Assembly: GCF_900113135.1 (NCBI RefSeq)
Contig: NZ_FOOH01000001.1
Span: 124,001-188,000 of the forward strand
Direction of reading: 5' to 3'
DNA: 64,000 bases
Source: Salegentibacter agarivorans
Lineage (GTDB): Bacteria > Bacteroidota > Bacteroidia > Flavobacteriales > Flavobacteriaceae
How positions within the stretch are numbered: the stretch's first letter is position 1; the number at the start of each line of letters is the position of its first letter. The position numbers and the translations under genes are program-made. A model generated the notes under the pieces. The model saw only the letters and a program-made list of their open reading frames with translations. It was not told the origin of the DNA and made no database searches. Shown in pieces: positions 31,879 through 64,000 of the stretch.

Positions 31879-33123
31879 TTATTTAATTTTATGTCCTTTA
31901 ACTGCAAAAAACCATATATATAAATAACTTGGGATAACAATCCAGTAAGCTGATTGCGGATCAAAGGTATCAGCAAGATAGCCATAAATAAGTGGTAAGA
32001 TTGCACCTCCCGCCAGGGCCATAATTAAAAATGAAGATCCAATTTTAGTAAACCTACCCAATCCGTGTAGTGCAAGTGGCCATATGGCCGGGAATACCAG
32101 GGCATTAGCAAGACCTAACAAAGAAATACTTAAGACCGATATGTATCCATTTGTAAAAATGGCGACCAGGCCCAATATTATTCCTAATATTCCAGAGAGC
32201 TGTAAGGCATTCTGCTGACTAATATATTTTGGAATCGTTACGGTACCAATTAGATAACCAACGATCATTGCAATTAATGTATAAGTGGTGAAAAATTTAG
32301 CTACATTGGTAGGGATATCGTGGGCATCTCGGGCATAGCTAATCACTGTATCCCCGGCAATTACTTCCACACCAACGTAAAGAAACATTGCAAGGGTACC
32401 CAATAATAAATTAGGGAATTGTAAAACATTGGTTTTATTTTTATTGGCGGCTGCGAGTGTTTCATCTTCTTCATCAGTTTTAATTTCAGGTAATGATGAA
32501 TAGTAAATTAAAACAGAAAGGCCTATAAGGATTATTGCCATTACAATATATGGTGTTATTACCCGTGCTGAAAGCGCATCCAGTTCAGCGGCTTTTTCTA
32601 CCGCATTCATCCCAGTAAGGCTCGCTTCCACTTTGTCCATATTTTTAAGCAAAATAGCACCAAAGATGATTGGGGCCAGTGCTCCTGCAAGTTTGTTACA
32701 GATTCCCATTATACTCATCCGTTTTGCCGCACTTTCAATAGGACCTAAAATGGTAATATAAGGGTTAGCAGCAGATTGCAGCAGGGCTAAACCAGTGCCT
32801 TGAACAAATAATCCGAATAAGAATAAAACGTAAGTTCTTGATATAGCCGCTGGAATAAAAATTAGGGCACCAACAGCCATAACAACTAATCCCGTAGACA
32901 TACCCTTTTTAAATCCTATTTTTTTTAGAACCCATGCCGAAGGTATTGCCATAACCAGATAGGAGATGTATGAGGCGAAAGCTACAAGGTAGGATTCAAA
33001 ATTATTGAGCTGACTCGCTGTTTTGAGATATGGAATTAAGACAGAGTTCAACCAGGTAACGAAGCCGAAAATGAAAAATAATACTCCAATTATGATGATG
33101 GATTTGTTTGTTTCTTTAGTCAT
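31879..33123 (-). CDS. FucP-family sugar MFS permease, candidate GalNAc importer
   Basis: 414 residues with 12 membrane helices of the major facilitator superfamily. The marks FFIFGFVTWLNSVLIPYLK in helix 1, FASYISYLVMAIPSAWVLKKIGFKKGM, LLQSAANPYITILGP and ANALVFPAIWPLALHGLG are those of the FucP/GGP group, which includes L-fucose, glucose/galactose and N-acetylglucosamine (NagP) permeases. It is the only inner-membrane sugar transporter in the PUL half of the window, so the substrate is inferred to be the released monosaccharide, perhaps GalNAc or galactose. It is last in the minus-strand operon, 186 bases after the GH123-like gene, with a hairpin between. Confidence 0.88.
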   Translation of the reverse strand: MTKETNKSIIIIGVLFFIFGFVTWLNSVLIPYLKTASQLNNFESYLVAFASYISYLVMAIPSAWVLKKIGFKKGMSTGLVVMAVGALIFIPAAISRTYVLFLFGLFVQGTGLALLQSAANPYITILGPIESAAKRMSIMGICNKLAGALAPIIFGAILLKNMDKVEASLTGMNAVEKAAELDALSARVITPYIVMAIILIGLSVLIYYSSLPEIKTDEEDETLAAANKNKTNVLQFPNLLLGTLAMFLYVGVEVIAGDTVISYARDAHDIPTNVAKFFTTYTLIAMIVGYLIGTVTIPKYISQQNALQLSGILGIILGLVAIFTNGYISVLSISLLGLANALVFPAIWPLALHGLGRFTKIGSSFLIMALAGGAILPLIYGYLADTFDPQSAYWIVIPSYLYIWFFAVKGHKIK

Positions 33124-33249
33124 GGATTTATTTTTAATATTCTATTTACTTAAAACAGTATTGTGATAAAGGCTTAGCTCATTGCTCAATTTGCCTTTGG
33201 GTTATTTTATGATAATCGGTACATATTAGAATTTTAAGCGAAAAATTTA

Positions 33250-33309: not shown

Positions 33310-35136
33310 TTATAAGTTCTGTAAAGCCTTTTGAGCTTTATCTATCATTACAGAAGCTGATTTATTGTTAAGCTCATCTATTGTGAAAGAGGACAGTATT
33401 TTATCAATTTGTAAAAGCGCTTCAGTATTATTATTCCTTTTAAATTCAGACTTTAAGATTTGAATTTTTTCATAGGCTTGTATTCCAGCTAATAGCTTTT
33501 CAAAGCGTATAGATGTTCTTCCGCCCGGATAAATAAAATAGGTGTCTCCAGCTGCCCAGGTGGTAAACCTGCTGTCTAAAAGTGGCTCCAGAACCCAACT
33601 GTTGTAAGCCCAACGTAAAAAACCATCTAACTTTTTATTGGCGGCATACCAGCCATACCATTCGGTTTCTGAAGGCTCACTAAAAGTGAAGCTATTGGGA
33701 TAGGGATGGGAGCAACTGGTATAGAAAGTACTTGTTTTCCCCTGTTTTTTACGGGATTCAATAATTTTATCGGGATAATTTTCACTTAATGTAATGGAAT
33801 AATCATCTATAGCATCAAACAATTCAGGATGACTATTACCTGCAAAAGATATTTTAAAATTCTTATCAGCATTTTTTATAACTTTCATAGCCGCTTCCAT
33901 AGATTCCATAGGGCGTTCATCCATAGCGATATAAGTTTTATCAAACCATCCTTTTTCTTTTAAATGGGCAGCGAAGGCTTTAAGCATAGCTGTCCAGGAA
34001 TTTTTGTATTCTTCCTCTCCGGGTTTGGTTTTAAGGTGTTTTGTAGTATTGGCAGCTTCATCAAAATAAGCAAAGCTTAGTTTCCAGGGAATCATACTGT
34101 AGGCATTAATTTGTTTGGTCACGCCTGAATCCATCATAAATTCTACCCACTTATCAAAAACATCAAAACTAAAATCCCATTTGCCATCAAGCTTCTTAGT
34201 CCACCGAACCATAGAATGAAAAGCATCCTGTGTTTGGCCATCCCAGGGACGGTCAATAATACTTGCTGTAATAGATTTTCCTCCAGCATTTACATAATGA
34301 TGAATATCCTCTTCCATAGCTTTAAAGTGTTCATCACTCCATAAATCGGTTTTATAATATCGGGCTGCAGCATATGGATTTTGCCATAGATCCAGATGGA
34401 AGTTCCATTCTTTTGGAGCTGACAAACGGCGTTCTTCTACCGTAATAGTTATAAATAACTTTTTTAAAATTTTACTACCATCCTTTATTTTTAAAGTTCC
34501 CGAATAAAGCCCTGGTTTGGTATTCCGGGGAACCTGAATGGATAACCAGCCGGGTCTTGTAGTTTGTTTTAATACCTTGAAATCTTTTATTTTATGATCT
34601 ATAACATCGGCCACTAAAGTTGAATCAAAGTTTGCCGGGACGCGATGGCCACAGGCTCCTTTTTGATCTTTATTAAGTTCATCGGTTAATACATAGCGAA
34701 CAAATGCACTTTCTATTTGCTCCTTTGAAATAACCTGGTTATTATTTCTGTTTTTTAAATCTGATATTTCTACACTTAGGCTTAAATCTTTTTTTCCTGC
34801 TGAAACTACCCATTGGGCAGAAAGTTTTTCTCCCCTCCAGCCTTGCAGGTTTAAATCAGTTGAAAGTGAATCTTTCGATACCGGTTTTTCTTTCTCGTAC
34901 CTCTTACTGGTTTTACCCCATCCCACTATAGTTCTTTGAGAATCATTCCAAAGTTTAACAGGAGTGGGAGTTGGGTTTGCTAATTCGTGATACGAATCAA
35001 CTGGAAAAGGCATCTGGTTTGTGTGTTGCCCGGAGTGAGTGACTCCTTCCGGACTTTGTGCCTGAGAAAAATTGAACCAACCCAGGAGAATAATAGCGCT
35101 CCAGGTTTTTATTATTCTGAATTTTTTGAAAGTCAT
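33310..35136 (-). CDS. Secreted DUF4091 / GH123-like glycoside hydrolase
   Basis: 608 residues with a signal peptide (about 1-27). An N-terminal beta domain (about 95-235, with WLSIQVPRNTKPGLYSGTLKI) is followed by a TIM-barrel-like part with WNFHLDLWQNPYAAARYY, then AMDERPMESM, in which Asp406-Glu407 match the adjacent Asp-Glu pair of GH123 beta-N-acetylgalactosaminidases, and a DUF4091-type C-terminal segment (GFLRWAYNSW, then GDTYFIYPGG). GH123 cleaves terminal beta-GalNAc with help of the substrate acetamido group. This fits the aga-type genes across the locus. It belongs to the minus-strand operon; a perfect 16-base palindrome stands 67 bases before its start. Confidence 0.75.
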   Translation of the reverse strand: MTFKKFRIIKTWSAIILLGWFNFSQAQSPEGVTHSGQHTNQMPFPVDSYHELANPTPTPVKLWNDSQRTIVGWGKTSKRYEKEKPVSKDSLSTDLNLQGWRGEKLSAQWVVSAGKKDLSLSVEISDLKNRNNNQVISKEQIESAFVRYVLTDELNKDQKGACGHRVPANFDSTLVADVIDHKIKDFKVLKQTTRPGWLSIQVPRNTKPGLYSGTLKIKDGSKILKKLFITITVEERRLSAPKEWNFHLDLWQNPYAAARYYKTDLWSDEHFKAMEEDIHHYVNAGGKSITASIIDRPWDGQTQDAFHSMVRWTKKLDGKWDFSFDVFDKWVEFMMDSGVTKQINAYSMIPWKLSFAYFDEAANTTKHLKTKPGEEEYKNSWTAMLKAFAAHLKEKGWFDKTYIAMDERPMESMEAAMKVIKNADKNFKISFAGNSHPELFDAIDDYSITLSENYPDKIIESRKKQGKTSTFYTSCSHPYPNSFTFSEPSETEWYGWYAANKKLDGFLRWAYNSWVLEPLLDSRFTTWAAGDTYFIYPGGRTSIRFEKLLAGIQAYEKIQILKSEFKRNNNTEALLQIDKILSSFTIDELNNKSASVMIDKAQKALQNL

Positions 35137-35260: not shown

Positions 35261-36205
35261 TTAATAGGCTTCACATTTTATATTTTTAAGCATATCTATA
35301 GTTATTTTCTTAAGATCGTATTTAGGTTTCCAACCCCATTCCTGTTCGGCCACCTCATCATTAATGCTCTGTGGCCAGCTGTCTGCAATATGTTGTCGAA
35401 AATCAGGTTCATATAAAATTTTGAAATCTGCGATATGTTTATTGATTTCTTCAGCAAGTTCAGCCGGTGTAAAACTTACTCCGGAAACGTTATAGGATGT
35501 ACGTGTTTTAATTTCTGAAGCAGGTGCTTCCATCAATTCCAATGTGGCTCTTATGGCATCGGGCATATACATCATGGGTAGACGGGTATCTTTACTAAGA
35601 AAACAGGTGTATTTTTTATCTTCTTTAGATTTATAAAATATATCTACAGCATAATCGGTAGTACCACCACCAGGTTGGGCTGAATAAGATATTAAGCCAG
35701 GGTAACGCAGGCTTCTCACATCAACTTTAAATTTTTTAGCATAGTAATTACACCACTGCTCGCCGGCCTGCTTAGAGATTCCATATACTGTACCTGGAAT
35801 CATTCTAGGGTTTTGGGGGGTATTTTTACGCGGAGTGTCATTTCCAAAAACAGCAATAGATGACGGCCAGAATATTTTAAGCTGGTATTTTCTGGCAGCC
35901 TCTAAAATTCCTAAGAGACTCCGCATATTTAAATCCCAGGTAAAAAGAGGATTATCTTCCCCTTTGGCTGAAAGGATAGCAGCTAAATGATATATCTGGG
36001 TAATATTTTCAGTTACAATAATATTTTCAATGTGCTTAGAATCGGTAGCATCTAAGGTTAGAAATTTTACTGAATTAAATTTTTTAGCTGATTCTGAGTT
36101 AATATCACTGGCCAGAATATTACTGGCTCCATATTTTGAAGCTAAAGCAGTGGTGAGTTCAACTCCTAATTGTCCCGCTGCGCCCGTAATTAATATTTTT
36201 TCCAT
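35261..36205 (-). CDS. NAD-dependent epimerase/dehydratase of the short-chain L-threonine 3-dehydrogenase type
   Basis: 314 residues of the extended short-chain dehydrogenase fold. NAD-binding ITGAAGQLG at the start, acidic Asp at the end of strand 2 (ASDINS), YHLAAILSAKGE, SSIAVFG and the catalytic Tyr-Lys pair in VYGISKQAGE are present. The segments NPLFTWDLNM, PGTVYGISK, RYPGLISY and PGGGTTDYAV match the UDP-galactose-4-epimerase-like threonine dehydrogenases known in Flavobacterium. It oxidises L-threonine to 2-amino-3-ketobutyrate. Its place inside a glycan operon is odd: it may handle threonine from O-glycosylated peptides, or act on a sugar. 42 bases separate it from the DUF3472 gene. 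Confidence 0.8.
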   Translation of the reverse strand: MEKILITGAAGQLGVELTTALASKYGASNILASDINSESAKKFNSVKFLTLDATDSKHIENIIVTENITQIYHLAAILSAKGEDNPLFTWDLNMRSLLGILEAARKYQLKIFWPSSIAVFGNDTPRKNTPQNPRMIPGTVYGISKQAGEQWCNYYAKKFKVDVRSLRYPGLISYSAQPGGGTTDYAVDIFYKSKEDKKYTCFLSKDTRLPMMYMPDAIRATLELMEAPASEIKTRTSYNVSGVSFTPAELAEEINKHIADFKILYEPDFRQHIADSWPQSINDEVAEQEWGWKPKYDLKKITIDMLKNIKCEAY

Positions 36206-36247: not shown

Positions 36248-37549
36248 TTAAGGTAAATTTTCAAAATTTATTTGTGGTGCATTCCCGGTTGCTTCCCTTT
36301 CAAAATTAGTATTGACTTCGGTTGTTTCATTAAAAAAGCCACAATTTTTCAAATAATATCCTCCTGTGGTCTCTCCTCCGGCATAATCAAGCCTATGTTT
36401 TTGATTGGCGGTGGCATCAGCTGTGAAAATGGTCTCAGTGAATTCTATCCAGCCCTGTTCCTCATCATAAAGCCATTGGTTTTTATAGTGAGCCTTACGG
36501 GAAATATCTCCAGTAGCAGGGACAAAATTTTCCAGGAAAGAATATAAACGGCCTAAATAATTACTGGATTTTGGCCTTCTAAAGCTTGCAATAAGTTCCC
36601 ATTCGTTATTTTCTGGCGTATAGAAATATGCGGAATAATCTGTATGATTTGGACCTGCGGGCTCACCTTTCAGTAGGAATTTGTAAGTGGTATTGGTTTT
36701 CCACATAAATTTTTTAAAACTCTGTCCTCCAGAGCCTTCATTGCCAAACTCGCCGGTATAGACATCATCTCCTTTTTTAAGCATAATAATTTTTTGATCT
36801 TCCGGAATTTCATCAGGGTTTTGCGTCTCGTAAGGACTCCAAACCGAAAATAGGATTCGACGTTCATTTTCTGAATTTACCTGCATGCCAAAATAACCGT
36901 GAGAAAATCCATTTGCCATATAGTAAGAACCTATCACATCTTCTCCCTGTGGTACCACTATTTCATTGTAAAAATAAGTGGGTTTTTTACTTTCTTCCGG
37001 GATGGGGTAACGCAAATGAACTGAAGGGCCACGACGACCAAAATGGAAATTGTCTTCTACGAAATTCACTTCCCCCTCGGTAACAGATCCAGCCAAAAGG
37101 AGTTCTTTGATTGTTATTTTTTCATTTGATTCCGGTTCTATAACTTTAATAGATACTTGCTGGTAACCTGAATCTTCAAGTTCAAATTCACCTAAATAAA
37201 CCTTCTGGAAGTCTTTGTTTTTAACCTGAATTTCGTGGCTTTCTCCAGCCAGTGATACTTTTAGTTTGGTATTTCCTGAAGTTGATTTCAGGTTAAGTCC
37301 AAGTTTTACCAATCCTGATTTGTTGGTTCTAAAATAACTTTGAATAGGTTTTTTGCCATCCCAATTATGTACACCTTCTTTTTTAATAATTTTTCTATCT
37401 TCTTCCTGATTGTTGGAAATCCACGAATTTTCACCTAAAGGAATTTGATAGGTATATTCTGGTTCCTCTTTATCCTGTGTACAAGAAGTTAAAAATATAC
37501 CCAGATAGGTTATTAATATAGCAACTTTGTATATGTTGAATTTCATCAA
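36248..37549 (-). CDS. DUF3472 lipoprotein with an N-terminal DUF5077-type domain
   Basis: 433 residues. Lipoprotein signal with Cys23 (FLTSC). An N-terminal beta-sandwich (about 30-160; TKLKVSLAGESHEIQV, QQVSIKVIEP) looks carbohydrate-binding and matches DUF5077. The rest is DUF3472: GPSVHLRYPIPE, YYMANGFSHGYFGMQVNS, RILFSVWSPYETQNPDEIP, NTTYKFLLKGEPAGPNHTDYSAYF. DUF3472 proteins are secreted, common in PULs, and have no proven activity. It comes after SusD1 and a perfect stem-loop, and is probably a surface protein that binds or cleaves the glycan. Confidence 0.8.
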   Translation of the reverse strand: MMKFNIYKVAILITYLGIFLTSCTQDKEEPEYTYQIPLGENSWISNNQEEDRKIIKKEGVHNWDGKKPIQSYFRTNKSGLVKLGLNLKSTSGNTKLKVSLAGESHEIQVKNKDFQKVYLGEFELEDSGYQQVSIKVIEPESNEKITIKELLLAGSVTEGEVNFVEDNFHFGRRGPSVHLRYPIPEESKKPTYFYNEIVVPQGEDVIGSYYMANGFSHGYFGMQVNSENERRILFSVWSPYETQNPDEIPEDQKIIMLKKGDDVYTGEFGNEGSGGQSFKKFMWKTNTTYKFLLKGEPAGPNHTDYSAYFYTPENNEWELIASFRRPKSSNYLGRLYSFLENFVPATGDISRKAHYKNQWLYDEEQGWIEFTETIFTADATANQKHRLDYAGGETTGGYYLKNCGFFNETTEVNTNFEREATGNAPQINFENLP

Positions 37550-37661: not shown

Positions 37662-39257
37662 TTAATATCCTGTATTATTAGGTGTCAGTTTGGGATTCTT
37701 ATCGATCGCACTTTGTGGAATAGGCAAAAGATTATTTTTAGGAGCTTGAAATTCCCTGGTCTCGATTAAATTTCGTGGTAACGTCATCGAAACATGATGA
37801 TCTCCATTTGGTTGAGTAGTCTCAAGAACCCTTCCTCTTTTTGCGCCCAATAATTCACCATTCATAACTATAGACGCTATATCCCAGCGTATAATATCAT
37901 CTCTACGAAGTCCTTCCATTGCAAACTCAACTCTTCGTTCATTTCTAATAAGTTTTCTCACGCTTTCCTGATCAGCATATTTTTGCTTATCCACTGCAGG
38001 CATCCCTGCTCTTAATCTCACCGCATCTATTGCTTCATAAAGTTCACTGTCTATTTGCCCTAATTCTACTTTTGCCTCTGCAATAGTCAGGAGAACTTCT
38101 GCATATCGAAAAAGAAAGATATCATTTCCCATATTCCAGAAAGGAGCACTGGGATCTATATCTATAAAAGTGGTATATTTTTTAAAATTATATCCCGTTT
38201 TTGAAGCGTTATCAGCTGTATTATAGTAATCTGGGTCATCTTCTTCAATTGAGCGGTAAACCCTGCCGGCAAATACCTGCCCGGGATAAACGACTGTGGC
38301 TCTTAACCTGGGATCACGATTTATAAATGGATTTTCAGGATCATAGTCTCCCTGGCTTTGAGCTTCCTGAATAGTTCTTCCGTCTGCCATCTCAAACGCA
38401 TCAACCAAAGACTGAGTAGGAACTACAGATGACCAGCCACCAATACTATTGGGTAAGAATGGAGTAAAACTCATTGCATAAATATCAGGCGTATGCTGTA
38501 CAGATAGAATGATTTCGTTATTCTGTTCATTAGCTGGATCAAAAAGGCCTTTAAAACTTGGGTGTAATGAATAGCCAGTGATGCTTTTTGCTGTTGTTAA
38601 GGCTTGTTCATAATTTTTAAAATATAGATAGTAGCGCATAAGGAGAGCTTGAGCGGCCCCTTTTGTAGCTTTTCCAAATTCTGAACCTGAATATGATTCG
38701 GGTAGAATATCGATTACTGCAGTTAATTCATTTTCAATAAATGTGCGAATTTCTGCTTGTGGATTTCGTGGCACTTTAGCTTCTTCGGGTGTAGCAAAAT
38801 TTTCAGTAATTAAAGGGATATCACCATAATTTGTGGTAAGCACATAATATTCATATGCGCGAATAAAGCGGGCTTGAGCCTTATAAATTATTCTATCTTC
38901 TTCCGGAACTTCAACTGCATTATCTGCATTTTCCAGAAATTCATTACATCGGTTTATTGTGGCAAAGTTGTAATACGATGCTCCGGGATCTGCTGGTGAT
39001 AATTTTCCATTCCCAATATTCGTCCATCCTTCCCAGGGGAAATTATTGAAAGCATTATCAGAACCAGCATCGCGATATAATATTGAGTTACCACTTTCAA
39101 AGCCGTTATAACAGCCTGTTAGCGCCAGATCTAAATCTTTTTTGCTTTTCCAAAAAGTGGAAGGGGAAAGTGCATCATTAGGTGCTGTGTCTAAAAAAGA
39201 ATCTTCGCAAGAGGTGAATATAAAAACGATTCCTATAAAGTAAATTAATTTTTTCAT
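37662..39257 (-). CDS. SusD/RagB family glycan-binding outer-membrane lipoprotein (pair 1)
   Basis: 531 residues. Lipoprotein signal with Cys17 (FTSC), followed by the acidic EDSFLDTAPNDALSPSTFW typical of SusD starts. TPR-like helices with INRCNEFLENAD, AQARFIRAYEYYVLTTNYGDIPLIT and the C-terminal ERRVEFAMEGLRRDDIIRW and NLLPIPQSAIDKNPKLTPNN are standard. It sits on the cell surface as the lid of its SusC and captures oligosaccharides. The start is 10 bases after the susC1 stop. Confidence 0.95.
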   Translation of the reverse strand: MKKLIYFIGIVFIFTSCEDSFLDTAPNDALSPSTFWKSKKDLDLALTGCYNGFESGNSILYRDAGSDNAFNNFPWEGWTNIGNGKLSPADPGASYYNFATINRCNEFLENADNAVEVPEEDRIIYKAQARFIRAYEYYVLTTNYGDIPLITENFATPEEAKVPRNPQAEIRTFIENELTAVIDILPESYSGSEFGKATKGAAQALLMRYYLYFKNYEQALTTAKSITGYSLHPSFKGLFDPANEQNNEIILSVQHTPDIYAMSFTPFLPNSIGGWSSVVPTQSLVDAFEMADGRTIQEAQSQGDYDPENPFINRDPRLRATVVYPGQVFAGRVYRSIEEDDPDYYNTADNASKTGYNFKKYTTFIDIDPSAPFWNMGNDIFLFRYAEVLLTIAEAKVELGQIDSELYEAIDAVRLRAGMPAVDKQKYADQESVRKLIRNERRVEFAMEGLRRDDIIRWDIASIVMNGELLGAKRGRVLETTQPNGDHHVSMTLPRNLIETREFQAPKNNLLPIPQSAIDKNPKLTPNNTGY

Positions 39258-39267: not shown

Positions 39268-42200
39268 TTAAAAAGTTAGATTAAAACCGATAGAATTGGT
39301 CATTACAACCGGGTATCCACTACCACGCCCGGAAGGCGCTTCAGGGTCCCATCCTTTGAGATAATTCGTAATAGTAAATAAATTCTGAGCAGTATAATAA
39401 ACTCTTAGTTTTGAAATATTCCAGCCGTCTAAAACGTTGGTTGGAATGTTATATCCAAGTTGAAGATTTTTCATTCTTAAATAATCTGTACTTCTTAACC
39501 AATAGCTTGTGGTAGAATTTTGAGGCATGCTTGGTCCATTAATTGCATCAATGAGTCTTGGCACGTTAGTGTTTGTGTTTTCTGGAGTCCATCGGTTTAA
39601 CCACATTGCAGATGGTTTTTGTCCGTCTCCATTAACGGCGCCAATAGCATCAAAATCCATATAGCCATAGCCACCTGTGGCTCCCTGAAAGATTGCCAGT
39701 AAATCAAAATTTTTGTAAGCTAAACTTAAATTAGCTCCAAAATTTAGAGTAGGAGTAGAGTTGCCTAGTAACACACGATCGTTGGCATCTACCTTGCCAT
39801 CGTTTGTGATATCAACATAACGTAAGTCTCCTGGTTGAATCTGTCCTGGATACAAGGTATTGGTAGGATATGCATCAATATCTTCCTGGTTTTGATGTAA
39901 ACCATCGGTTTTATAGCCATACCAGGAATCAAGTGATTCACCTAACTTCCGGATTTGACGTCCACTAATAACTTCATTTGTACCTGCAAGTTCTACTAAT
40001 TCATTTTTATTGTAGGCTACATTACCGCCAAAACCAAAATCTATTTCGCCAAAGGTCTCTGTATAGTCAAGACTAACTTCAATTCCTTTATTATCTAACT
40101 TACCTACGTTATCATAAAAGTTATTTAATGCAAATTCGTTGGGAGCGGGCACTTGCATAATAATACCTTCGGTAAGTTTTTTATATATATCTATGGTGAC
40201 ATTTAATTTATAAAGTAACCTGGCATCTATACCTAATCCATAGCTTGTAGTTTTTTCCCAAATTAATGCTGCATTTTTCGCATTCGCAATGGCTGCTCCA
40301 GAATTAATTTCACTATTAAACGGATAGTCTATTCCAAGACCTAAAGTTGGTACAGTAGGATAATAGTCATTTAGGGCATCCTGGTTACCAAGTTGACCCC
40401 AGGAACCTCTAAGTTTTAAATTGTTCACAGTACTTTTTATTCCTTCAAAGAAATTTTCATCAGATATTCTCCAACCTGCAGAGAAAGAAGGAAAGACTCC
40501 AACTCTATTATCTTCTGCAAAACGAGATGATGCATCTGCTCTTAAGTTTGCTTCAAATAAATAGCGGCCTTGGTAATCGTAATTTAATCTACCAAACCAG
40601 GAGGTCATATTTAGTTCTCTTGTATAGCCTGTATTTTTCATGCCGTTTGTGGAGCCGGCATCTAAATTAGGAAGTTCATTACTTGGAAAGTTTTCACGGT
40701 AAGCTGTTGTTCTTTTAAAATTATAAGATTCAGCATGGTATCCAACCAAAGCACCTACATTATGTACATTTTCAAAAGTTTTATTGTAATTAGCCGTTAA
40801 ATCAAGCGTATTTCGAGTAGTTGTTCTAAGGTCTTCGGTGAGTTTTGTTGGACCGTGGTATTTGTTCTCGTTATATTGGATTTCTTTATTCATTTCTGAA
40901 TTATCCTCTTCTACATTTCTATGGGACATAAGGGCTTTAACATTAAATCCTTCGAAAAGGTCGGCTTGTATAGAACCAATTCCCACAAAGGTTTTCCGGT
41001 TATAATTAATTTGAGGCCCCATATCTATCCAGGAAATAGGGTTGCCGTCTGAAATGGTCCCATAACTGCCATCTTCATTTTTATAAGGAATCCAGGGTGC
41101 AATTCTGTTTGTTTGCCTAATAATTTGATCTAAACCGCCGCCAACATATGTATTGTTAGGCTGTTCACGATCCATTTGTGTGTAGGACAGGTTTAAATTG
41201 GTGGTTAACCATTTTTTAGGGGTGATTGTAAGATTTACTCGAGCATTATACTCATCTTTCCCTGTGTGCTTTATTATCCCATCCTGTTTTTGATAATTTA
41301 GGGATGCTCGATATTTAGTGTATTCTGTACCACCTGATATGCCTAAATTATTTGTGGTGACAAATCCCGATCCCTGGTACAGTAAATCCTGCCAATCTGT
41401 ATTTGGATGGCTGTAAGGGGCACTTCCATTTTGAAAAAGTTCAAGGTCATTTTCATCAAATTTTGGGGCTTTACCACTATTTGTTAAGGCTTCATTATAA
41501 AGCACAGCATAGTCGTACGATCCCAGATAATCTGGTAATCTAGTAGCAGATTGCCATCCAAAATTACTTGTTAGTCGTACTGAAGGTTCTCCTGTTTTTC
41601 CGGTTTTAGTTGTAATTAAAATGACACCGTTAGCAGCTTTTGAACCATAAATAGCAGCTGAAGCAGCATCTTTTAGTACTGAAATATTTGCAATATCGTT
41701 TGGCTGAACATCATTCAAGGAACCTTCAACTCCATCTATTACTACCATAGGAGACGCCTGGTTTAAAGTACCAGTACCACGAATTCTTATAGTACCACCA
41801 TCGTTACCCGGCATACCTGATGATTGGTTTACCGAAACACCCGGCAACAATCCAGAAAGTCCGGCAGATACACTGGTCATAGGTCTATCCTCAAGCATAT
41901 CCCCATCTACAGATGCTACGGAACCTGTTAAGTTTACTTTCTTTTGGGTGCCAAATCCTACCACAACCACTTCGTCTAAAGCTGCAGCATCTTGCTCCAG
42001 AACAATGTCGATATTAGTTTTGCCATTAACCTCTATTTCTTTTGTAGCATAGCCCATATAGCTGATAACTAAAACTGCATTACTGGGCGTTTGAATAGTG
42101 TAGTTTCCATCAAAATCTGTCATTGTGCCGTTGTTGGTACCTTTTTCTACGATGTTAACACCAGGAAGGCTCATACTGTTGTCTGTAACAGTCCCTGTAA

Positions 42201-52408: not shown

Positions 52409-52473
52409 AAACTTTCGTTTCGTTAATTAAAAGTTTAAAAAAATCTGTAAAACGAAAAAAAATTTTTCGTTTT
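52409..52473. promoter_or_regulatory. Two candidate DeoR/AgaR-type operators upstream of agaS
   Basis: AAACTTTCGTTTCGTTA (52409-52425) resembles the TTTCRTTT repeat of Escherichia coli AgaR sites as I remember it. Downstream, AAAACGAAAAA (52449-52459) and TTTTTCGTTTT (52463-52473) form a perfect 11-base inverted repeat with 3-base spacer. Both are within 120 bases of the agaS start, so the aga genes should have their own regulated promoter here. Confidence 0.55.
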
Positions 52474-56365: not shown

Positions 56366-56453
56366 AAGCTGTTAGAATAAAGTGCAGCCAAAATCTATTT
56401 CCTATGAAGAGGAAAAAAATTAAGTGCAAATAGAATTAAAAAAAGAAAACAAT

Positions 56454-57443
56454 ATGATATCAAAATTTATAGATGCGCACGTGCATTTAAACACGCTTTC
56501 TGCAGAAAAAATGGAGAAAATGATGGAATATAATTCGGGTTTTCTTTCTATAAACACCAATATCCCATTTTTTGATGAAATTGAAGAACAGGAAAAGATC
56601 ATTCTTAAGCTTCAGAAAAAATATCCGGGAAGAATAAAATATTTTACCACGTTCAATTTTAAAAAATGGGGAACTTCAGAGTTTGTAGATGATGCTATCA
56701 ATCAGATAAAGCGAGGGATAGATAATGGGGCAGTAGGGGTGAAGATATGGAAAGATGTAGGTTTTGATTATCATCACGAAGACGGCAGTTTTGTAATGAT
56801 AGATGATCCTGTCTTTGATCCAATTTTTGATTTTATTCAAAAGAATAAAATTATGCTTATAGGTCATCAGGGAGAGCCTCGAAATTGTTGGTTACCTCTG
56901 GATGAAATGACCGTAGATTCAGATAGAAACTATTTTAAAGACCATCCCGAATATCATATGTTTCTTCAAAAGCAATATCCCTCTTATGAAGATCAAATGC
57001 AGGCCAGGGATAATATGCTAGAAAAATTCCCCGAAATAACCTATGTGGGGCTTCATTTGTTTAGCATGGAGTGGAGCATCAAAGAAGTTGCTGCTCGTTT
57101 GGAGGCATATCCAAATACTTTAACCGATGTAGCTGAGCGTGTTTGCCATTTACAATTGCAGGCTAAAGATAATTGGGAAGCTGTACGCAACTTCTGCATA
57201 AAATATCAGGATAGAATTATATACGGCACCGATGTGATTGACGACGGTAATACGCCAGCAGACGAAATCGCCGGAAGGTTTGAAAATTTGTGGCAATTTC
57301 ATTACGATTTTTTCGCCACAGCAAAAACATTGAGCGCTCCGGAATTTCAAGGAGATTTCAAAGGTCTCGATCTCCCCAAAGATGTTGTGGAAAAGATATT
57401 CTATACTAATGCGAAAGAAACTTATGGTTTTTCCGATTTTTAA
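56454..57443 (+). CDS. Amidohydrolase-superfamily (Amidohydro_2-type) metal-dependent hydrolase
   Basis: 329 residues from the ATG at 56454; the frame also has a GTG at 56424 that would add ten hydrophilic residues (less likely). The TIM-barrel metal site is complete: DAHVHL (His9, His11), GVKIWKD with a Lys, LIGHQGEP, VGLHLFSMEW and IYGTDVIDD with the last Asp. It is not of the NagA family. In this operon the missing step is deacetylation of GalNAc 6-phosphate, an amidohydrolase reaction, so this protein is a candidate by position; lactonase or other hydrolase activity is equally possible. Confidence 0.8.
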   Translation: MISKFIDAHVHLNTLSAEKMEKMMEYNSGFLSINTNIPFFDEIEEQEKIILKLQKKYPGRIKYFTTFNFKKWGTSEFVDDAINQIKRGIDNGAVGVKIWKDVGFDYHHEDGSFVMIDDPVFDPIFDFIQKNKIMLIGHQGEPRNCWLPLDEMTVDSDRNYFKDHPEYHMFLQKQYPSYEDQMQARDNMLEKFPEITYVGLHLFSMEWSIKEVAARLEAYPNTLTDVAERVCHLQLQAKDNWEAVRNFCIKYQDRIIYGTDVIDDGNTPADEIAGRFENLWQFHYDFFATAKTLSAPEFQGDFKGLDLPKDVVEKIFYTNAKETYGFSDF

Positions 57444-57562: not shown

Positions 57563-58972
57563 ATGAAAAATAACCGAAGAGATTTTTTAAGAATAACCGG
57601 TCTTGGCGGGCTTGGACTGGTAAGCAGTAGCTTTTTAAACTGCAAAGGGCCTGAAGCATTTTTAGCAAATGCTCCTACCGGTCCCCAACAGTTTAATATG
57701 AGCGGTTATGCCGCTCCCAAATTAGATACCGTTCGTATTGGTTTTATTGGTCTGGGAATGAGAGGTCCGGGTGCGGTAAACCGTATGAGTCAGATTGAAG
57801 GAGTGGAGATTAAAGCACTGTGTGATTTAAGACCTAAACAGGCTGAAAAAGCAAAAGAACTTTTAAAGGGAACTTCCCATAATCCCGATTTATATTCGGG
57901 GAGTGATGATGCGTGGAAAGAAATGGTAGACAGGGAAGACCTGGATTTAATTTACATTGCAACCCCGTGGGACTGGCATACGCCAATGGCAGTATACGCT
58001 ATGGAAGCCGGAAAACATGCTGCAGTAGAAGTTCCAGCGGCAAAGACTATAGATGAATGTTGGGAGCTTGTGGAAACATCTGAAAGAACTAAGAAGCATT
58101 GTATGATGCTTGAAAATTGCTGTTATGATTTCTTTGAACTTTTAACTTTGAATATGGCACGCCAAGGTTATTTTGGAGAAATTATTCACGGAGAAGGAGC
58201 GTATATCCATGATCTATTAGATCTAAATTTTCAGAAAAATGCTTATGAAGATATGTGGCGTCTAAGAGAGAACTATGAAAGAGATGGAAACCTTTATCCA
58301 ACTCATGGTTTAGGCCCAATTTGCCAGATAATGAATGTAAACAGGGGTGACCAAATGGATTATTTAACGTCCCTATCCAGTAATGATTTTCATATGGCTG
58401 GGAAAGCTAAAGAATTAGCTAAAGATGATTCTTTTTATGACCAATTTGTTGGTAAAGATTATGCTGGAAATATGAATACCACCATGATTAAGACCAAAAA
58501 TGGAAAAAGTATAATGGTGCAGCATGATGTTACTTCTCCACGCCCTTATTCTAGAATACACTTAGTAAGCGGGACTAAAGCTTTTGCGAGAAAATGGCCA
58601 AGCCCTGAGAGAGTAGCTAAGGGACATAGTTGGTTAAATGAGAACGAAATGTCTGAACTTGAAAGTAAATATACTCCTGAAATAGTGAAAAAAGTAGGTG
58701 ATATGGCGAAGAAAGTCGGTGGCCATGGAGGAATGGATTTTATCATGGACTGGAGATTGATTGATTGTCTTAGAAATGGCCTTCCTTTAGACCAGGATGT
58801 ATACGATGCAGCTTTATGGAGCGCAATCACCCCTCTTTCAGTAGATTCTGTTACCAATAGAGCTCAGTCTATGGACGTGCCTGATTTTACAAGAGGAGCA
58901 TGGAAGAATAATAAGCCTGTAGATGTAACTTTAAAAGGAGGTGGAACAACCAATGTAATATTAAAAGCTTAG
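57563..58972 (+). CDS. GH109-type alpha-N-acetylgalactosaminidase (Gfo/Idh/MocA fold)
   Basis: 469 residues. The N-terminus has a twin-arginine signal (NNRRDFLRITGLGGLG) and a Cys at residue 27 (SSFLNC) that could make it a lipoprotein. The NAD-binding core GFIGLGMRG (60-68) and the segments ATPWDWHTPMAVYAMEAGKH, MLENCCYDFFELLTLNM, GYFGEIIHGEGAYIHDL, LYPTHGLGPICQIMNVNRGD, VQHDVTSPRPYS and GGHGGMDFIMDW match the GH109 group by eye. GH109 hydrolyses alpha-GalNAc through a transient NAD oxidation. It follows the amidohydrolase gene by 119 bases and is followed by a terminator. Confidence 0.85.
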   Translation: MKNNRRDFLRITGLGGLGLVSSSFLNCKGPEAFLANAPTGPQQFNMSGYAAPKLDTVRIGFIGLGMRGPGAVNRMSQIEGVEIKALCDLRPKQAEKAKELLKGTSHNPDLYSGSDDAWKEMVDREDLDLIYIATPWDWHTPMAVYAMEAGKHAAVEVPAAKTIDECWELVETSERTKKHCMMLENCCYDFFELLTLNMARQGYFGEIIHGEGAYIHDLLDLNFQKNAYEDMWRLRENYERDGNLYPTHGLGPICQIMNVNRGDQMDYLTSLSSNDFHMAGKAKELAKDDSFYDQFVGKDYAGNMNTTMIKTKNGKSIMVQHDVTSPRPYSRIHLVSGTKAFARKWPSPERVAKGHSWLNENEMSELESKYTPEIVKKVGDMAKKVGGHGGMDFIMDWRLIDCLRNGLPLDQDVYDAALWSAITPLSVDSVTNRAQSMDVPDFTRGAWKNNKPVDVTLKGGGTTNVILKA

Positions 58973-59176: not shown

Positions 59177-59947
59177 ATGAGAAAAGCCGCAGCACGCCGA
59201 TCTAAAATTTTGGAAATTTTAGATGAAACAAATAAAGTGAATGTAACCGAATTAAGTGAGCACTTTAGTGTGAGTGAAGTTACTATTCGTAACGATTTAG
59301 ATAAATTAGAAAAAAATAAACTCCTTGTTAGGGCTCATGGAGGTGCTTTTAAGACAAATAACCTGGCCTTAGCGGTATCAGAAAAGAAAAGTATTAATCG
59401 CGATCTTAAACGGCTAATTGGGAAGACCGCTGTTGGTCTTATCCAGGAAAATGATTCTATTATTCTGGACTCAGGAACAACTACTTTTGAAATTGCGAGT
59501 AATCTGGGGAAGTTTAAGGAAATTACGGTTATTTCTAATGCACTGGACATTGTTAACAATCTTGCTCAGTTTGATAATTTAAAAGTTTATATGCCTGGCG
59601 GATATTTAAAGGAATTTTCCATGTCCTTAGTGGGGCCAATGGCGGAGCGAAATTTAAAACAGCTTTTTTGTAATAAATTGTTTCTTGGAGTAGATAGTAT
59701 TAGAAGTAATGTCGGTTTTTTCACCCACCATATGGAAGAGGCATATCTAAATCAAATAATGATTGAGATTGCTGAAGAAGTAATTGTGGTGGCAGATTCT
59801 ACTAAGTTCAAAAAAACCGGCCTGGCTTTTATTCAGAATTTTGAACATATAGATAAGGTTATTACCGACGATGGAATTGATGAGAACGACCTTAAGATGT
59901 TACAAAAGAATAACGTGGAAGTTTTAATTGCAGGAAAAGGTGAATAA
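59177..59947 (+). CDS. DeoR/GlpR-family transcriptional regulator (AgaR-like)
   Basis: 256 residues. The N-terminal winged helix-turn-helix (about 6-57) reads ARRSKILEILDETNKVNVTE, then LSEHFSVSEVTIRNDLDKLE, and HGGA, the DeoR signature. The rest is the DeoRC sensor domain with LDSGTTTFEIA (phosphosugar-binding loop), VISNALDI, MPGGYLKE and VVADSTKF. Regulators of this type repress sugar genes until a sugar phosphate binds. It is between the aga genes and the nan gene; repeated AACTTTC(G/A) motifs near five promoters are candidate binding sites. Its inducer is inferred to be an intermediate of the galactosamine/tagatose pathway. Confidence 0.9.
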   Translation: MRKAAARRSKILEILDETNKVNVTELSEHFSVSEVTIRNDLDKLEKNKLLVRAHGGAFKTNNLALAVSEKKSINRDLKRLIGKTAVGLIQENDSIILDSGTTTFEIASNLGKFKEITVISNALDIVNNLAQFDNLKVYMPGGYLKEFSMSLVGPMAERNLKQLFCNKLFLGVDSIRSNVGFFTHHMEEAYLNQIMIEIAEEVIVVADSTKFKKTGLAFIQNFEHIDKVITDDGIDENDLKMLQKNNVEVLIAGKGE

Positions 59948-59965: not shown

Positions 59966-59995
59966 TTTGATATGTAATACATAATACATATCAAA
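59966..59995 (+). promoter_or_regulatory. 11-base inverted repeat overlapping the start codon of the lyase
   Basis: TTTGATATGTA (59966-59976) and TACATATCAAA (59985-59995) are exact inverses with an 8-base spacer, and the last A is the A of the start codon. Inside, TATGTA-A-TACATA is another inverted repeat. It may be an operator or an RNA hairpin that covers the start. ATGTA..ACAT recurs before susC3. Confidence 0.55.
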
Positions 59996-60891
59996 TGAAA
60001 AACTTGTTTGCGGCGACTTATGCGCCTATGAAAGATGATTGGAGCATTAATCCTGGGATGGTTGGTTCGTATGCCGATTTCCTTAAAAGGAATAAACTAT
60101 CTGGAGTTTTTATTAATGGTTCAACTGGTGACTTTGTTTCATTAACCACTAATGAGCGTACAGAGCTACTGGAAGCCTGGGCAGATCATAAATCAAATGG
60201 CTTATACTTAATAAATCACGTGGGAAGCAATAGCCTGAAAGAGGCAGAAATTCTTGCAGCTTCTTCAGTGGGAAGGGCAGATGCAGTGGCAGCAATAGCT
60301 CCTTTTTATTTTACACCTTCAAATATCCAGCAATTAATTGACTATTGTAAATCAATTGCATTAAAGGCAAAAGACCTTCCTTTCTACTACTATCACTTAC
60401 CTGTTTTAACCGGTGTAAATTTTCCAATGCTGAGTTTTGCTGAAAAAGCTAAGGGGCAAATTCCCAATTTTGCTGGTATTAAATTTACTGAGAATAATCT
60501 CGTAGAATTTCAAAAAACGAGTCTTGGTCATCCTGATTTGGATATTTTCTTTGGAGTAGATGAAGCTTTTTATTCTTCACTAGGCTTACAGGCTGGTGGT
60601 TGGGTTGGAAGTACTTACAATCATTTATCACCACTTTTTTATAAAATAAAGGAAGAATTTGATAAAGGTAATCTTCAGAAAGCTGCACAATTACAGAGTT
60701 TTGTAGCAAAATTTGTAGAAACATTGAGTAGCTATGGAAGCTTCAACGGATCTGGGAAAAGTTTTATGAAGAAACTTGGCATAGATTGTGGCCCCTCTCG
60801 TTATCCGCATCCTACTTTAAAAGATTCTGAAATAAAAAATGCTTTCGAAACTTTTGAAAACATTGGCTTATCCGAATATTTTTCATCATAA
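59995..60891 (+). CDS. nanA: N-acetylneuraminate lyase (NanA/NPL type)
   Basis: 298 residues of the DapA/NanA aldolase superfamily. FINGSTGDFVSLTTNER is the substrate carboxylate loop; FYYYHLPVLTGV gives the catalytic Tyr133, and GIKFTENNLVEFQ gives the Schiff-base Lys163. FGVDEAFYSSLGLQAGGWVGSTYNHL is close in pattern to vertebrate and Bacteroides-type neuraminate lyases. This argues against dihydrodipicolinate synthase. It cleaves sialic acid to N-acetylmannosamine and pyruvate in the cytoplasm. It is 47 bases after the regulator gene. The rest of the sialic acid pathway (epimerase, kinase, sialidase) is not in the window. Confidence 0.9.
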   Translation: MKNLFAATYAPMKDDWSINPGMVGSYADFLKRNKLSGVFINGSTGDFVSLTTNERTELLEAWADHKSNGLYLINHVGSNSLKEAEILAASSVGRADAVAAIAPFYFTPSNIQQLIDYCKSIALKAKDLPFYYYHLPVLTGVNFPMLSFAEKAKGQIPNFAGIKFTENNLVEFQKTSLGHPDLDIFFGVDEAFYSSLGLQAGGWVGSTYNHLSPLFYKIKEEFDKGNLQKAAQLQSFVAKFVETLSSYGSFNGSGKSFMKKLGIDCGPSRYPHPTLKDSEIKNAFETFENIGLSEYFSS

Positions 60892-60981: not shown

Positions 60982-63900
60982 ATGAAAAAAAGATTAATTA
61001 TGGATGATTGGAGATACCTTTTGAATAAGGTATTACAATTATCCCGGCCAGATTTCACTAATAAAGTACTATTGGGTGGGCTTGTATTTTTGTGTTTTGG
61101 CTTTACGATGCAATCTCAGGATTTCGAAGTTTCAGGAGTTGTTTCAGATGAAGCAGGAATCCCTATACCAGGAGTTAATGTATTAGTGAAAAATACTAAT
61201 CGTGGTGTTCAAACCGATTTTGATGGAGCATATAATATAGAAGTATCCCAGGGAGAAACTTTATCCTTTAGTTATATAGGTTTCAAAACTACCGAAATCG
61301 TTGTAGAAGACGGGGATTCTGAAATTAATGTTATTCTTGAAGAAGATCTATCCAGCCTGGATGAAGTGGTTGTTACCGGGTATTCCACCCAGTTGAGGAG
61401 TAATATGGCTACAGCAGTTTCCAAATTAGATACTAAGGTACTGGAAAGCGCGCCTAGATCTAATGCGGCTACAGCGCTTCAGGGTACTATTGCAGGTTTA
61501 CGTGTAACTCAAAACACTGGACAACCCGGAGCTACACCAAGTATCTCCCTACGTGGGGGGAGTGATTTTGGTGGTGGCGGTAGTCCATTAATTTTAATTG
61601 ACGGAGTTCCTGGATCCTTTTATGCTTTAAATTCCGACGATATTGAATCTATGGAAGTCTTAAAGGATGCTGCTTCTACTGCCGTATATGGTGCGCGAGC
61701 TGCAAACGGAGTTATTCTGGTAACTACCAAAAAAGGAAAAGCTGGACGTTCTAACATTACCTATAGGCATAGGTATACTATCAATGAAAGACGGGACACC
61801 CCAGAATATCTTGGGGCCGAAGATTTTATTATTTATAATCGTAGGGCCATTAGAAATACACAAAGAGTACTTGGTGAAGGCGCATTTAATAATTTTCTAG
61901 TAGGACCCCAGGGGATGGGAACTGGCAATAACACTACAAACTCTCCTTTTACTACAATGATTTTAGGAGAGGATAATAGATATTTGCTAGATCAGCCAGG
62001 TTGGAGTTCCATTCAAGATCCTATAAATCCGTCGCAGCAGTTAATTTTTCAAGAAAATGATATGAGTGAGTTGTTTTTTCAAAATAGTCATTCAAAAGAT
62101 CATTCTCTTTCTTTTGATGGCGGTAATGAGAAAGGTACTTATTATGCCGGTTTGGGATATCTTGATGATCAAGGTATTGTTATTGGTTCTGGTTTTGAAC
62201 GGTTTTCAGGAACGTTTAACGGATCCTATAACGTAAAAGATAATTTTAAAGTTTCTTCAAATTTACTTTATGCGCATTCCGAAGTTAATGGTACTTATTT
62301 GGGTAATGATAATCAAATATTCGAACGTGCGGCGGGGCAACCACCTACGTCCAGGATTTATAATAATAATCCCGATGGGAGTTTAAGTGATGATCCAAAC
62401 CCTGGTACAAATACTAGTTTTGGTAATCCATTATACTATAAGGATAAATTTTTAAGTGAGAATTTGGAGCAGCGTCTTACTGCATCAGTACAATTGGACT
62501 GGCAGTTTATAGAAAATTTCAACTTAATGCTTAGGGGTTCCCATTTTACTATTAATAACACTAATGAGAGTTTTAATAAAGCGTACTTAAATGCGGGATC
62601 ATTAGTAACCACTAGAAATGCTTCTGCCAGCCATCAAAAAACATTGAGGAATCAGGCCACGGCCACGGTTACTTATGATAATGTTTTTAATGAAAAACAC
62701 AATGTTAATGCAATGTTGGGTGGAGAATTTTTTCGAGAAGACTATTTTGTATTGAGTGGAGCAACAAGGTTATCTCCTACCGATTTAATTACTACTCTGA
62801 ATGCGGGAGCAGAAGCTAATGGAGTGCCTTCTTCCTCAAAAACTAATTATGCTATTGCTTCAGTTTTTGGGCAGGTAAATTATGATTATGATAATAGATA
62901 TTTACTAGGTCTTACTTTTAGACAAGACGGAACTTCGAGATTAGGGACTGAAAAATATGATTTCTTCCCAGGGGTATCATTTGGTTGGAATCTTCATAAT
63001 GAAAACTTTTATGAAAGTTCAAATGTTGAAAGCTTAGTATCGCGTATTAAGCCACGTGTAAGTTATGGGGTGAATGGGAATATAGATGTATTGAGTAATT
63101 ATGGTGTTTATGGTTTATATGCGGAAACCGCTGTGTATGGTGGTCAAACCGGTTACGCTAATACCAATTTACCAACACTTGGTCTAAAATGGGAACGTGC
63201 CACTACACTCAATTTTGGATTGGATTTAGGCCTGTTTAAAAATCGTGTGAATCTTTTAGTAGATTATTTTATTCGAGATGTGGATGATAAACTTGCAGGT
63301 TTAACTTTACCTCAATGGACTGGATTTAGTTCTATCCTTGTGAATAACGGGACCTTAAGAAATAAAGGTTTTGAATTAGAATTGGATGCAACAATTGTCA
63401 ATAACGACAATTGGAACTGGAATATTGGTGGTACTTATTTTACACAAAAAAGATATGTGGAATCTTTACCTGATAACGGGGTAGAAAACAACCGTCAAGG
63501 AGGGATTGAGGTTTATGACCCTGAAACCGATGGTACCCGATATATAGGTGGTTTACAGGAAGGACAACGAGTGGGAACTGATATTGTTACGGCTTATATT
63601 CAAGAAGGAGTTTATCAAACTGAAGCAGATCTGGCAGAGCACGAAGGTCGTAGAGTAGAAATGGCAACCAACCCAGAATTTCAGCAGTTAGGGGATTCTC
63701 GTTGGAGGGATGTGAATGGTGATAATATTATAGATTTTCGCGACAGGGTGAAAATTGGTAGAATTACACCAGATTTCTTTGGAGGATTCACCTCAGATCT
63801 TACCTATAAAAACTTTAACTTGTTTATAAAGACTGACTTTGCTTTAGGCCATCTAATACAAAACAATGCAAGATCCCGGGGAATGGCGCAAGTTCAAGGA

Positions 63901-64000
63901 AATATGAACTGGACTAACGAATTGTTAGATACCTGGACGGAAGAAAATCCAAATACAAACGTTCCCAGATACGATTTCACTGATCCACAACGTAACCACT
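60982..64000 (+). CDS. SusC/RagA family TonB-dependent receptor (third), cut by the right edge
   Basis: 1006 residues are visible and the frame is still open at the end. A 30-residue basic N-terminal extension (MKKRLIMDDWRYLLNKVLQL) precedes the signal-peptide hydrophobic stretch (LLGGLVFLCFGFTMQSQ). Then come the CNA-B-type domain (VSGVVSDEAGIPIPGVNVLVK), LDEVVVTGYSTQLRSN, plug with ISLRGGSDFGGGGSPLILIDGV and VLKDAASTAVYGARAANGVILVTTK, and the barrel. It follows nanA after 90 bases, so sialylated oligosaccharides or sialic acid are plausible ligands; its SusD should lie just beyond the window. Confidence 0.95.
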   Translation, partial: MKKRLIMDDWRYLLNKVLQLSRPDFTNKVLLGGLVFLCFGFTMQSQDFEVSGVVSDEAGIPIPGVNVLVKNTNRGVQTDFDGAYNIEVSQGETLSFSYIGFKTTEIVVEDGDSEINVILEEDLSSLDEVVVTGYSTQLRSNMATAVSKLDTKVLESAPRSNAATALQGTIAGLRVTQNTGQPGATPSISLRGGSDFGGGGSPLILIDGVPGSFYALNSDDIESMEVLKDAASTAVYGARAANGVILVTTKKGKAGRSNITYRHRYTINERRDTPEYLGAEDFIIYNRRAIRNTQRVLGEGAFNNFLVGPQGMGTGNNTTNSPFTTMILGEDNRYLLDQPGWSSIQDPINPSQQLIFQENDMSELFFQNSHSKDHSLSFDGGNEKGTYYAGLGYLDDQGIVIGSGFERFSGTFNGSYNVKDNFKVSSNLLYAHSEVNGTYLGNDNQIFERAAGQPPTSRIYNNNPDGSLSDDPNPGTNTSFGNPLYYKDKFLSENLEQRLTASVQLDWQFIENFNLMLRGSHFTINNTNESFNKAYLNAGSLVTTRNASASHQKTLRNQATATVTYDNVFNEKHNVNAMLGGEFFREDYFVLSGATRLSPTDLITTLNAGAEANGVPSSSKTNYAIASVFGQVNYDYDNRYLLGLTFRQDGTSRLGTEKYDFFPGVSFGWNLHNENFYESSNVESLVSRIKPRVSYGVNGNIDVLSNYGVYGLYAETAVYGGQTGYANTNLPTLGLKWERATTLNFGLDLGLFKNRVNLLVDYFIRDVDDKLAGLTLPQWTGFSSILVNNGTLRNKGFELELDATIVNNDNWNWNIGGTYFTQKRYVESLPDNGVENNRQGGIEVYDPETDGTRYIGGLQEGQRVGTDIVTAYIQEGVYQTEADLAEHEGRRVEMATNPEFQQLGDSRWRDVNGDNIIDFRDRVKIGRITPDFFGGFTSDLTYKNFNLFIKTDFALGHLIQNNARSRGMAQVQGNMNWTNELLDTWTEENPNTNVPRYDFTDPQRNH

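Follow-up and report, generated by a model that had tools for sequence, protein, structure and literature searches.

The subject of this study is a polysaccharide utilisation locus (PUL) of the flavobacterium Salegentibacter agarivorans. It was found in a window of 64,000 nucleotides (the whole stretch of DNA that was analysed: contig NZ_FOOH01000001.1, positions 124,001 to 188,000, in our labels C20:124001-188000 of the source genome G000). The locus starts at window position 31879 and ends ∼18 kb past the window, at the equivalent of position 82100 (∼50 kb in all); the downstream stretch was followed through C20:185500-225000. It is probably a compound PUL for sialylated, 3-O-sulfated animal glycans containing galactose and N-acetylgalactosamine (GalNAc), most simply mucin-type O-glycans. 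As such it is a new combination on a known theme, the mucin/sialic-acid PUL. An initial annotation, made from the DNA letters, had proposed a sulfated, GalNAc- and galactose-containing, mucin-like or marine animal glycan as the target, and the enzyme families, a sialic-acid arm and a BT1636-like sulfatase support that proposal.

Three SusC/SusD pairs accompany the contiguous carbohydrate enzymes. SusD-like 1 (37662-39257), SusC-like 1 (39268-42273), SusD-like 2 (42836-44530) and SusC-like 2 (44542-47550) lie on the minus strand. SusC-like 3 starts at 60916 on the plus strand and runs off the window at 64000, its completed frame encoding 1117 aa. The three SusC genes counted initially are thus all there; the two SusD genes are both within the window, and a third follows just beyond its end. 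Pfam profile searches, with matches above cut-off, place the other products in the families named at the outset (GH2, S1, GH109, GH123, DUF3472, kinases, aldolase, NanA), and NCBIfam subfamily models were scored against their curated cut-offs. Two genes had gone unmentioned: an L-threonine dehydrogenase (TDH) and an Amidohydro_2 protein. Neither Rfam models nor a tRNA search gave any match in the window.

The GH123-like and GH109-like proteins had been set as a test of the proposed target, and both fall inside their families and match solved enzymes. The GH123 β-N-acetylgalactosaminidase (33310-35136, minus strand, signal-peptide-like start) contains GH123_cat (E 1.3e-110) and aligns nearly full-length with PDB 5l7r (E 1.4e-197), including the motif MDERP from residue 405, whose Asp-Glu we take to be the catalytic pair. 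The GH109 α-N-acetylgalactosaminidase (57563-58972, plus strand, Tat-type start by eye) combines a GFO_IDH_MocA fold with a GH109_C domain (E 2.2e-43), and matches 6t2b nearly full-length (E 2.3e-100) and 2ixa (E 1.5e-72). Neither protein differs notably in sequence from its solved counterpart (5l7r or 6t2b), and the activities here are predicted from that likeness. A GH2 LacZ-type β-galactosidase (47819-50938, plus strand) also has a signal-peptide-like start and scores 967 bits with NCBIfam Bga2A (cut-off 999).

The S1 sulfatase (50970-52382, plus strand, lipoprotein-like start) has its CxPSR motif at residue 81 (C81). Its best solved relative is the sequence common to 7an1, 7oqd and 9thu-9thw (E 2.3e-101), followed by 7ana (E 6.6e-86). 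Entries 9THU, 9THV and 9THW are BT1636 (PMC13383068), which recognises galactose O4 through a His and O2 through a Glu and an Arg, the last two being absent from BT1622 (PMC10154612). When the Salegentibacter sulfatase is aligned with the 7an1 chain, its residues H160, E301 and R323 fall on the His, Glu and Arg there. In the 7ana chain, presumably BT1622, the His is kept and the other two columns hold Asn and Cys. Because H160, E301 and R323 match the BT1636-type galactose-recognition residues, the enzyme is predicted to act as an exo 3-O-sulfo-galactose sulfatase, nearest BT1636 (S1_20). The locus thereby resembles the colonic mucin O-glycan PUL of B. thetaiotaomicron that contains BT1636. 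It differs from that PUL in having GalNAc catabolism built in and in its sulfatases, of which the locus genes scanned include one.

The target glycan had been called 'possibly' sialylated; it is very probably so, because sialic-acid genes occupy the next 18 kb of the contig, namely a NanU-type SusD, a GH33 sialidase, two GH20s, an AGE epimerase, a SASA acetylesterase and a NanM-symporter fusion. After SusD3 and GH33 the order is DUF1080, FadR, AGE, GH20, AP_endonuc_2, a protein with an FGE-sulfatase domain, Gfo/Idh, GH20, SASA and NanM-symporter. SusD3, the partner of SusC-like 3, matches NanU best (PDB 4l7t, E 3.1e-76), and the sialidase (PDB 1eur, E 1.1e-49) has four Asp boxes and an RIP motif. 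Within the window, the N-acetylneuraminate lyase NanA (59995-60891, plus strand, DHDPS/NanA family) matches PDB 6arh (E 9.2e-47), with the Tyr, Lys, Asp-Glu and Ser of the sialic-acid site aligned in YYYHLP, GIKFTEN, GVDEAF and GSTYN; its score lies below the NCBIfam nanA cut-offs (PRK04147 155.6 bits, cut-off 281). Sialidase, lyase, epimerase, NanU-type SusD and transporter are thus all present. Compared with the Bacteroidetes nan operon of the NanO/NanU type, the arm shares the NanU-like SusD beside SusC, NanA, an AGE-type epimerase, GH33, GH20, the SASA esterase, a NanM-type mutarotase and a symporter. It differs in being joined to a GalNAc/galactose PUL with a sulfatase, in having the NanM and symporter domains in one protein, and in the DUF1080/AP_endonuc_2/Gfo-Idh set inside it. 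That marine flavobacteria have sialic-acid PULs is no novelty, since sialic acid-containing polysaccharides are among the further possible substrates named for North Sea flavobacterial PULs (PMC6298971).

Two observations on this arm weigh against the overall reading. The GTTGE of the 6arh enzyme is replaced by GSTGD in NanA. The arm is also modular: AgaS, one of the GalNAc genes described below, occurs in 9 of the 15 Salegentibacter genomes searched and GH33 orthologues in five, and in four of the nine AgaS-positive genomes the two are linked, at a distance of 13-14 kb.

Some further features of the arm and its surroundings may be recorded. The DUF1080 (3-keto-disaccharide hydrolase family), AP_endonuc_2 and Gfo/Idh/MocA genes (L002:5726-6523, 10298-11224 and 12174-13565) form what we take to resemble an oxidative 3-keto-glycoside breakdown set. 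In another Salegentibacter genome, G301, two sialidase genes lie in tandem (L065, G301:C11:86069-88299). Right after the sialic arm comes a second locus (L003:1832-19600; C20:207232-225000; genes scanned up to L003:11067) with a LytTR/His-kinase pair, GH92, an SSF symporter, GH130, CBM9 and GHL10, which looks like a locus for the use of mannose-rich N-glycans.

The GalNAc arm is built around a catabolic cassette on the plus strand: AgaS galactosamine-6-phosphate deaminase/isomerase (52528-53691; SIS by Pfam; TIGR02815 371 bits, cut-off 529), a LacC-like PfkB kinase resembling tagatose-6-phosphate kinases (53681-54607), a ribokinase-like PfkB (54597-55541) that is a candidate GalNAc kinase, a class II tagatose/fructose-bisphosphate aldolase (55541-56365; F_bP_aldolase 6.8e-88), the Amidohydro_2 protein (56424-57443) and, after GH109, the repressor AgaR (59177-59947). 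The last had been described as a DeoR regulator and goes further, passing the AgaR cut-off (NF040755, 263.7 bits against 260). AgaS and the kinases, like NanA, are family matches that stay below NCBIfam cut-offs, the LacC-like kinase scoring 190 bits with the 1-PFK subfamily and 127 and 147 bits with tagatose-6-phosphate kinase models; the aldolase passes only the cbbA subfamily cut-off (236.9 over 215.6). AgaS, tagatose kinase-like PfkB, class II aldolase and AgaR are as in the Proteobacterial/Firmicute aga pathway for GalNAc. Unlike that pathway, the Salegentibacter cassette has no AgaA/NagA-family deacetylase and includes the Amidohydro_2 protein. To call the AgaS-kinase-aldolase route 'complete', as the initial annotation did, goes too far: AgaS, the kinases and the aldolase are there, while no NagA-family deacetylase was found among the locus genes scanned and none matched above ∼33 bits in the S. 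agarivorans genome. Ravcheev and Thiele (2017, PMC5583593), in a survey of gut genomes, placed a GalNAc catabolic pathway in 76 of them, every one belonging to the Actinobacteria, Firmicutes or Proteobacteria.

Of 299 Flavobacteriaceae genomes, 13 have a true AgaS orthologue (288 bits or more, the weaker matches listed reaching at most 44) and eight an Amidohydro_2 orthologue (459 bits or more, with 61% identity or more; next match 344 bits, 44%). All eight are AgaS-positive, with the gene within ∼4 kb of AgaS, and none of the 286 AgaS-negative genomes has it (Fisher 9e-13, kinship uncorrected). Gene content was compared over 18 regions around AgaS or Amidohydro_2; they were picked by matches to these two proteins, and the counts depend on that choice. 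All except G225 carry the Amidohydro_2 orthologue or, in L044 (Chitinophagaceae), an outside relative. These 17 regions contain the ribokinase-like PfkB (17), AgaS (16, the one without being L042, with a flank of only 10 kb), the aldolase (16), the LacC-like PfkB (15), an adjacent GH109 (13), DUF3472 (10), TDH (6) and NanA (4). Another Salegentibacter genome (G299) retains only AgaS, the ribokinase-like PfkB, Amidohydro_2 and AgaR, a set that fits three steps from GalNAc to tagatose-6-phosphate: kinase, deacetylase and deaminase/isomerase. A second type of AgaS locus (L022-L023, L028-L033, L044) encodes a membrane protein of ∼290-300 aa, EamA transporter-like by eye, and, L044 apart, lacks an Amidohydro_2 orthologue next to AgaS.

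Import of the monosaccharide may fall to the NagP/gluP-like MFS permease at the locus start (31879-33123, minus strand; Pfam MFS_1), a candidate GalNAc importer. It had been taken for a FucP-type permease, a reading that does not stand: the NagP (395.8 bits, cut-off 625) and gluP (307.9, passing 202.55) models fit better than FucP (202.2, cut-off 280.4), only the gluP (glucose/galactose) cut-off is passed, and there is no fucosidase among the locus genes scanned.

From what was observed (the genes present, the families they belong to, their clustering and their occurrence across genomes) a route can be proposed in which all substrates, the assignments of Amidohydro_2 and the kinases, and a threonine step are predicted. 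GH33 would remove sialic acid and the S1 enzyme would take the 3-O-sulfate off terminal galactose, after which GH2 would release β-galactose, GH123 and GH20 β-linked N-acetylhexosamine (HexNAc), and GH109 the α-GalNAc linked to Ser/Thr. SusC/D pairs 1 and 2 would import oligosaccharides, SusC/D3 (NanO/NanU-like) together with the NanM-symporter fusion would import sialic acid, and NanA and AGE would convert the latter to GlcNAc. GalNAc, brought in by the NagP-like permease, would be phosphorylated by the ribokinase-like PfkB and deacetylated by Amidohydro_2; AgaS would then deaminate and isomerise it, the LacC-like PfkB phosphorylate it again and the aldolase split the product, all under the control of AgaR. 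The dedicated threonine dehydrogenase would oxidise the threonine that remains once GH109 has acted.

The threonine dehydrogenase gene (35261-36205, minus strand, no signal peptide by eye) encodes a short-chain L-threonine 3-dehydrogenase: its best PDB match is an L-threonine dehydrogenase (E 1.2e-134), over the full length and with YxxxK as YGISK from residue 141, and a reading as an NAD-epimerase was rejected on this match. Mucin-type glycans are attached to Ser/Thr via α-GalNAc, the bond that GH109 is taken to cut, so threonine use would be a natural link, and the arrangement suggests that the threonine carrying the glycan may also be consumed. The gene is a paralogue, a second copy in the same genome (C13:58789) being 55% identical. 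Locus-type copies (at least 77% identity) occur in 4 of 15 Salegentibacter genomes (G000, G305, G257 and G302; in G302 one search flags a TGA and the region reading gives an open frame). In each of the four the gene shares a contig with AgaS, at a distance of 8-44 kb, and a separate housekeeping copy is found elsewhere in the genome. G142 also has an AgaS-linked TDH, the sole close TDH match in that genome, and so does Gramella jeungdoensis (L039), where the gene directly follows GH109.

The chances are evenly balanced that this TDH is instead a passenger unrelated to the glycan. Several findings count against a role in glycan use: the gene is present in just 6 of the 17 Amidohydro_2 regions, and the locus genes scanned include no O-glycopeptidase, GH101 or threonine-releasing peptidase. 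In a tree of 26 TDH proteins the locus copies do not form a single clade; five of the six group together (support 87/88), the Gramella one with a long branch, and the sixth, from G142, pairs with the G030 copy, whose distance from the AgaS of its genome is 67 kb. On the other side, all six, and the G030 copy, fall outside a 16-row housekeeping clade (100/99), as do three more non-locus rows. The locus copies keep 103-112 of the 133 columns that do not vary among the 16 housekeeping rows (four non-locus rows left out). A passenger is also harder to square with the occurrence of the gene at differing positions in three genera, and with a Salegentibacter paralogue additional to the housekeeping copy that is found only in AgaS genomes and on the AgaS contig (4/4). 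Nothing linking threonine dehydrogenase, mucin and polysaccharide utilisation was found in the open-access literature searched.

Odds are about even that Amidohydro_2 (plus strand, no signal peptide seen) is the missing GalNAc-6-phosphate deacetylase, a non-orthologous replacement predicted from context. The protein has no PDB sequence match at E 0.001. An alignment of 25 relatives keeps H19, H21, H148, H178, H211, H242 and D270, which are presumably metal ligands, and the AlphaFold model (pLDDT 88) has an amidohydrolase fold and identifies the superfamily only. NagA (TIGR00221, matches of at least 194 bits counted, several of them under the curated cut-off of 225.65) was not found in 10 of 14 genomes with the Amidohydro_2 cassette (G000, G257, G241, G021, G250, G030, G299, G301, G302, G308) and is present in the other four (G031, G142, G300, G305). 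All five AgaS genomes without an Amidohydro_2 orthologue have it (G225, G212, G037, G289, G011), in G011 on the AgaS contig ∼27 kb from AgaS. Over the 13 AgaS genomes of the family sample this makes 2/8 with against 5/5 without the orthologue (Fisher p = 0.021, kinship uncorrected).

Only slightly less probable is that Amidohydro_2 performs a side reaction, for example lactone hydrolysis, and that a PIG-L protein or another enzyme does the deacetylation. The points that weigh against the deacetylase assignment largely argue for this. A 642-aa PIG-L frame in the S. agarivorans genome (C16:38515), of the size of NagB-PIG-L fusions, could supply the activity, and 20 of the 26 genomes examined, this one included, have a PIG-L frame of 639-683 aa. 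By Foldseek the model comes nearest to decarboxylases, hydratases and a lactonase, at a TM of about 0.4-0.5; dihydroorotases, which are amide hydrolases, stand lower down, and the 50 rows listed include no NagA. NagA is also rare in AgaS-negative relatives (3/13 and 0/6 in two control sets), so its absence alone is uninformative and was rejected as proof. Finally, of the 17 loci whose Amidohydro_2 relative is 41-47% identical (L043-L059, some of them no longer than 3-4 kb), L044 alone shows AgaS; over all 24 Amidohydro_2 loci found, seven have AgaS beside the gene (L036-L041, L044) and 17 do not. On the other side stand the strict AgaS linkage of the orthologue, its place in the minimal G299 cassette, and G250, which has the cassette without NagA and with no PIG-L frame of 639-683 aa seen. 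The 41-47% relatives have AP_endonuc_2 neighbours (checked in L046, L049, L059) and melibiase-like neighbours (L045, L046, L049), a setting unlike that of the cassette. The open-access literature searched yielded nothing joining N-acetylgalactosamine-6-phosphate deacetylase with Flavobacteria.

Another protein strongly associated with these loci is the lipoprotein-like DUF5077-DUF3472 protein (36248-37549, minus strand; Pfam), whose solved relative 4qhw (E 6.4e-104) is uncharacterised. DUF3472 occurs in 32 of the 299 family genomes, made up of seven of the eight that have Amidohydro_2 (all but G031) and 25 of the remaining 291 (Fisher 6e-7), and it lies about 6-41 kb from AgaS in all seven DUF3472-positive cassette genomes of the family sample. 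It must have other uses too, because 24 AgaS-negative genomes carry it, and in G212 it is on a different contig from AgaS.

CTTTCG(TTTCG)-like repeats are suggestive of AgaR operators. They lie before SusC-like 1 (42305-42338), in the divergent promoter (47616-47633) and before AgaS (52408-52425, plus strand). The patterns were derived from the sites themselves: the first gives 4 matches against 0.35 expected, the strict repeat with three mismatches 5 against 3.1. Over the 18 regions an 11-base repeat has 19 matches (∼12.6 expected from plain shuffles), five of them intergenic, and four of the five precede AgaS (G000, G305) or a SusC (G021, G250).

As for the target, the same enzymes might serve another glycan, such as an echinoderm or other marine animal glycosaminoglycan, a ganglioside-like glycolipid or a sialylated glycoprotein, with GH123 cutting the β-GalNAc of chondroitin-like or ganglio-series chains. 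GH123 and the two GH20s do act on β-HexNAc, and Salegentibacter holothuriorum (L041, G301), whose name points to the sea cucumber, has the right arm with the sialic genes, albeit with no GH123, TDH or DUF3472 orthologue in the 60 kb read. The absence of PL8 and GH88 among the locus genes scanned, the adjacent α-GalNAc enzyme GH109 in 13 of 17 cassettes and a sulfatase of the 3S-Gal type by sequence make such a target unlikely.

It is likewise doubtful that a GalNAc/galactose PUL (31879-59947) merely adjoins an independent nan locus (59995 onward). Five of the nine AgaS-positive Salegentibacter genomes have no linked GH33, among them G299 with GH33 on another contig, and the sialic arm has a FadR-type regulator where the GalNAc arm has AgaR. 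Against this, NanA follows AgaR on the same strand after a gap of 47 bp, and the joined form is conserved, since the order AgaR-NanA-SusC3-SusD3-GH33 is the same in four genomes (G000, G305, G301, G257). An algal galactan is not favoured as target, because the sialidase, NanA, NanU-type SusD, GH109 and GH123 do not fit it.

More broadly, and tentatively, the observations sketch a flavobacterial GalNAc cassette in which a non-AgaA/NagA Amidohydro_2 protein would deacetylate GalNAc-6-phosphate and a ribokinase-like PfkB would be the GalNAc kinase; some species may couple to it a dedicated TDH, eating the O-glycan including its amino acid, and the DUF3472 protein may be extracellular and act on the same GalNAc glycans. 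No description of the gene combination, the Amidohydro_2 link or the TDH link was found in the open-access literature, searched mostly at listing level. The locus provides testable candidates for a GalNAc-6-phosphate deacetylase in Bacteroidota, for the function of DUF3472 and for a TDH tied to O-glycan loci. The proposed reading would widen the use of mucin-type glycans, known from gut symbionts, to include marine flavobacteria; if it is true, a single locus would metabolise a glycoprotein as sugar plus attachment amino acid.

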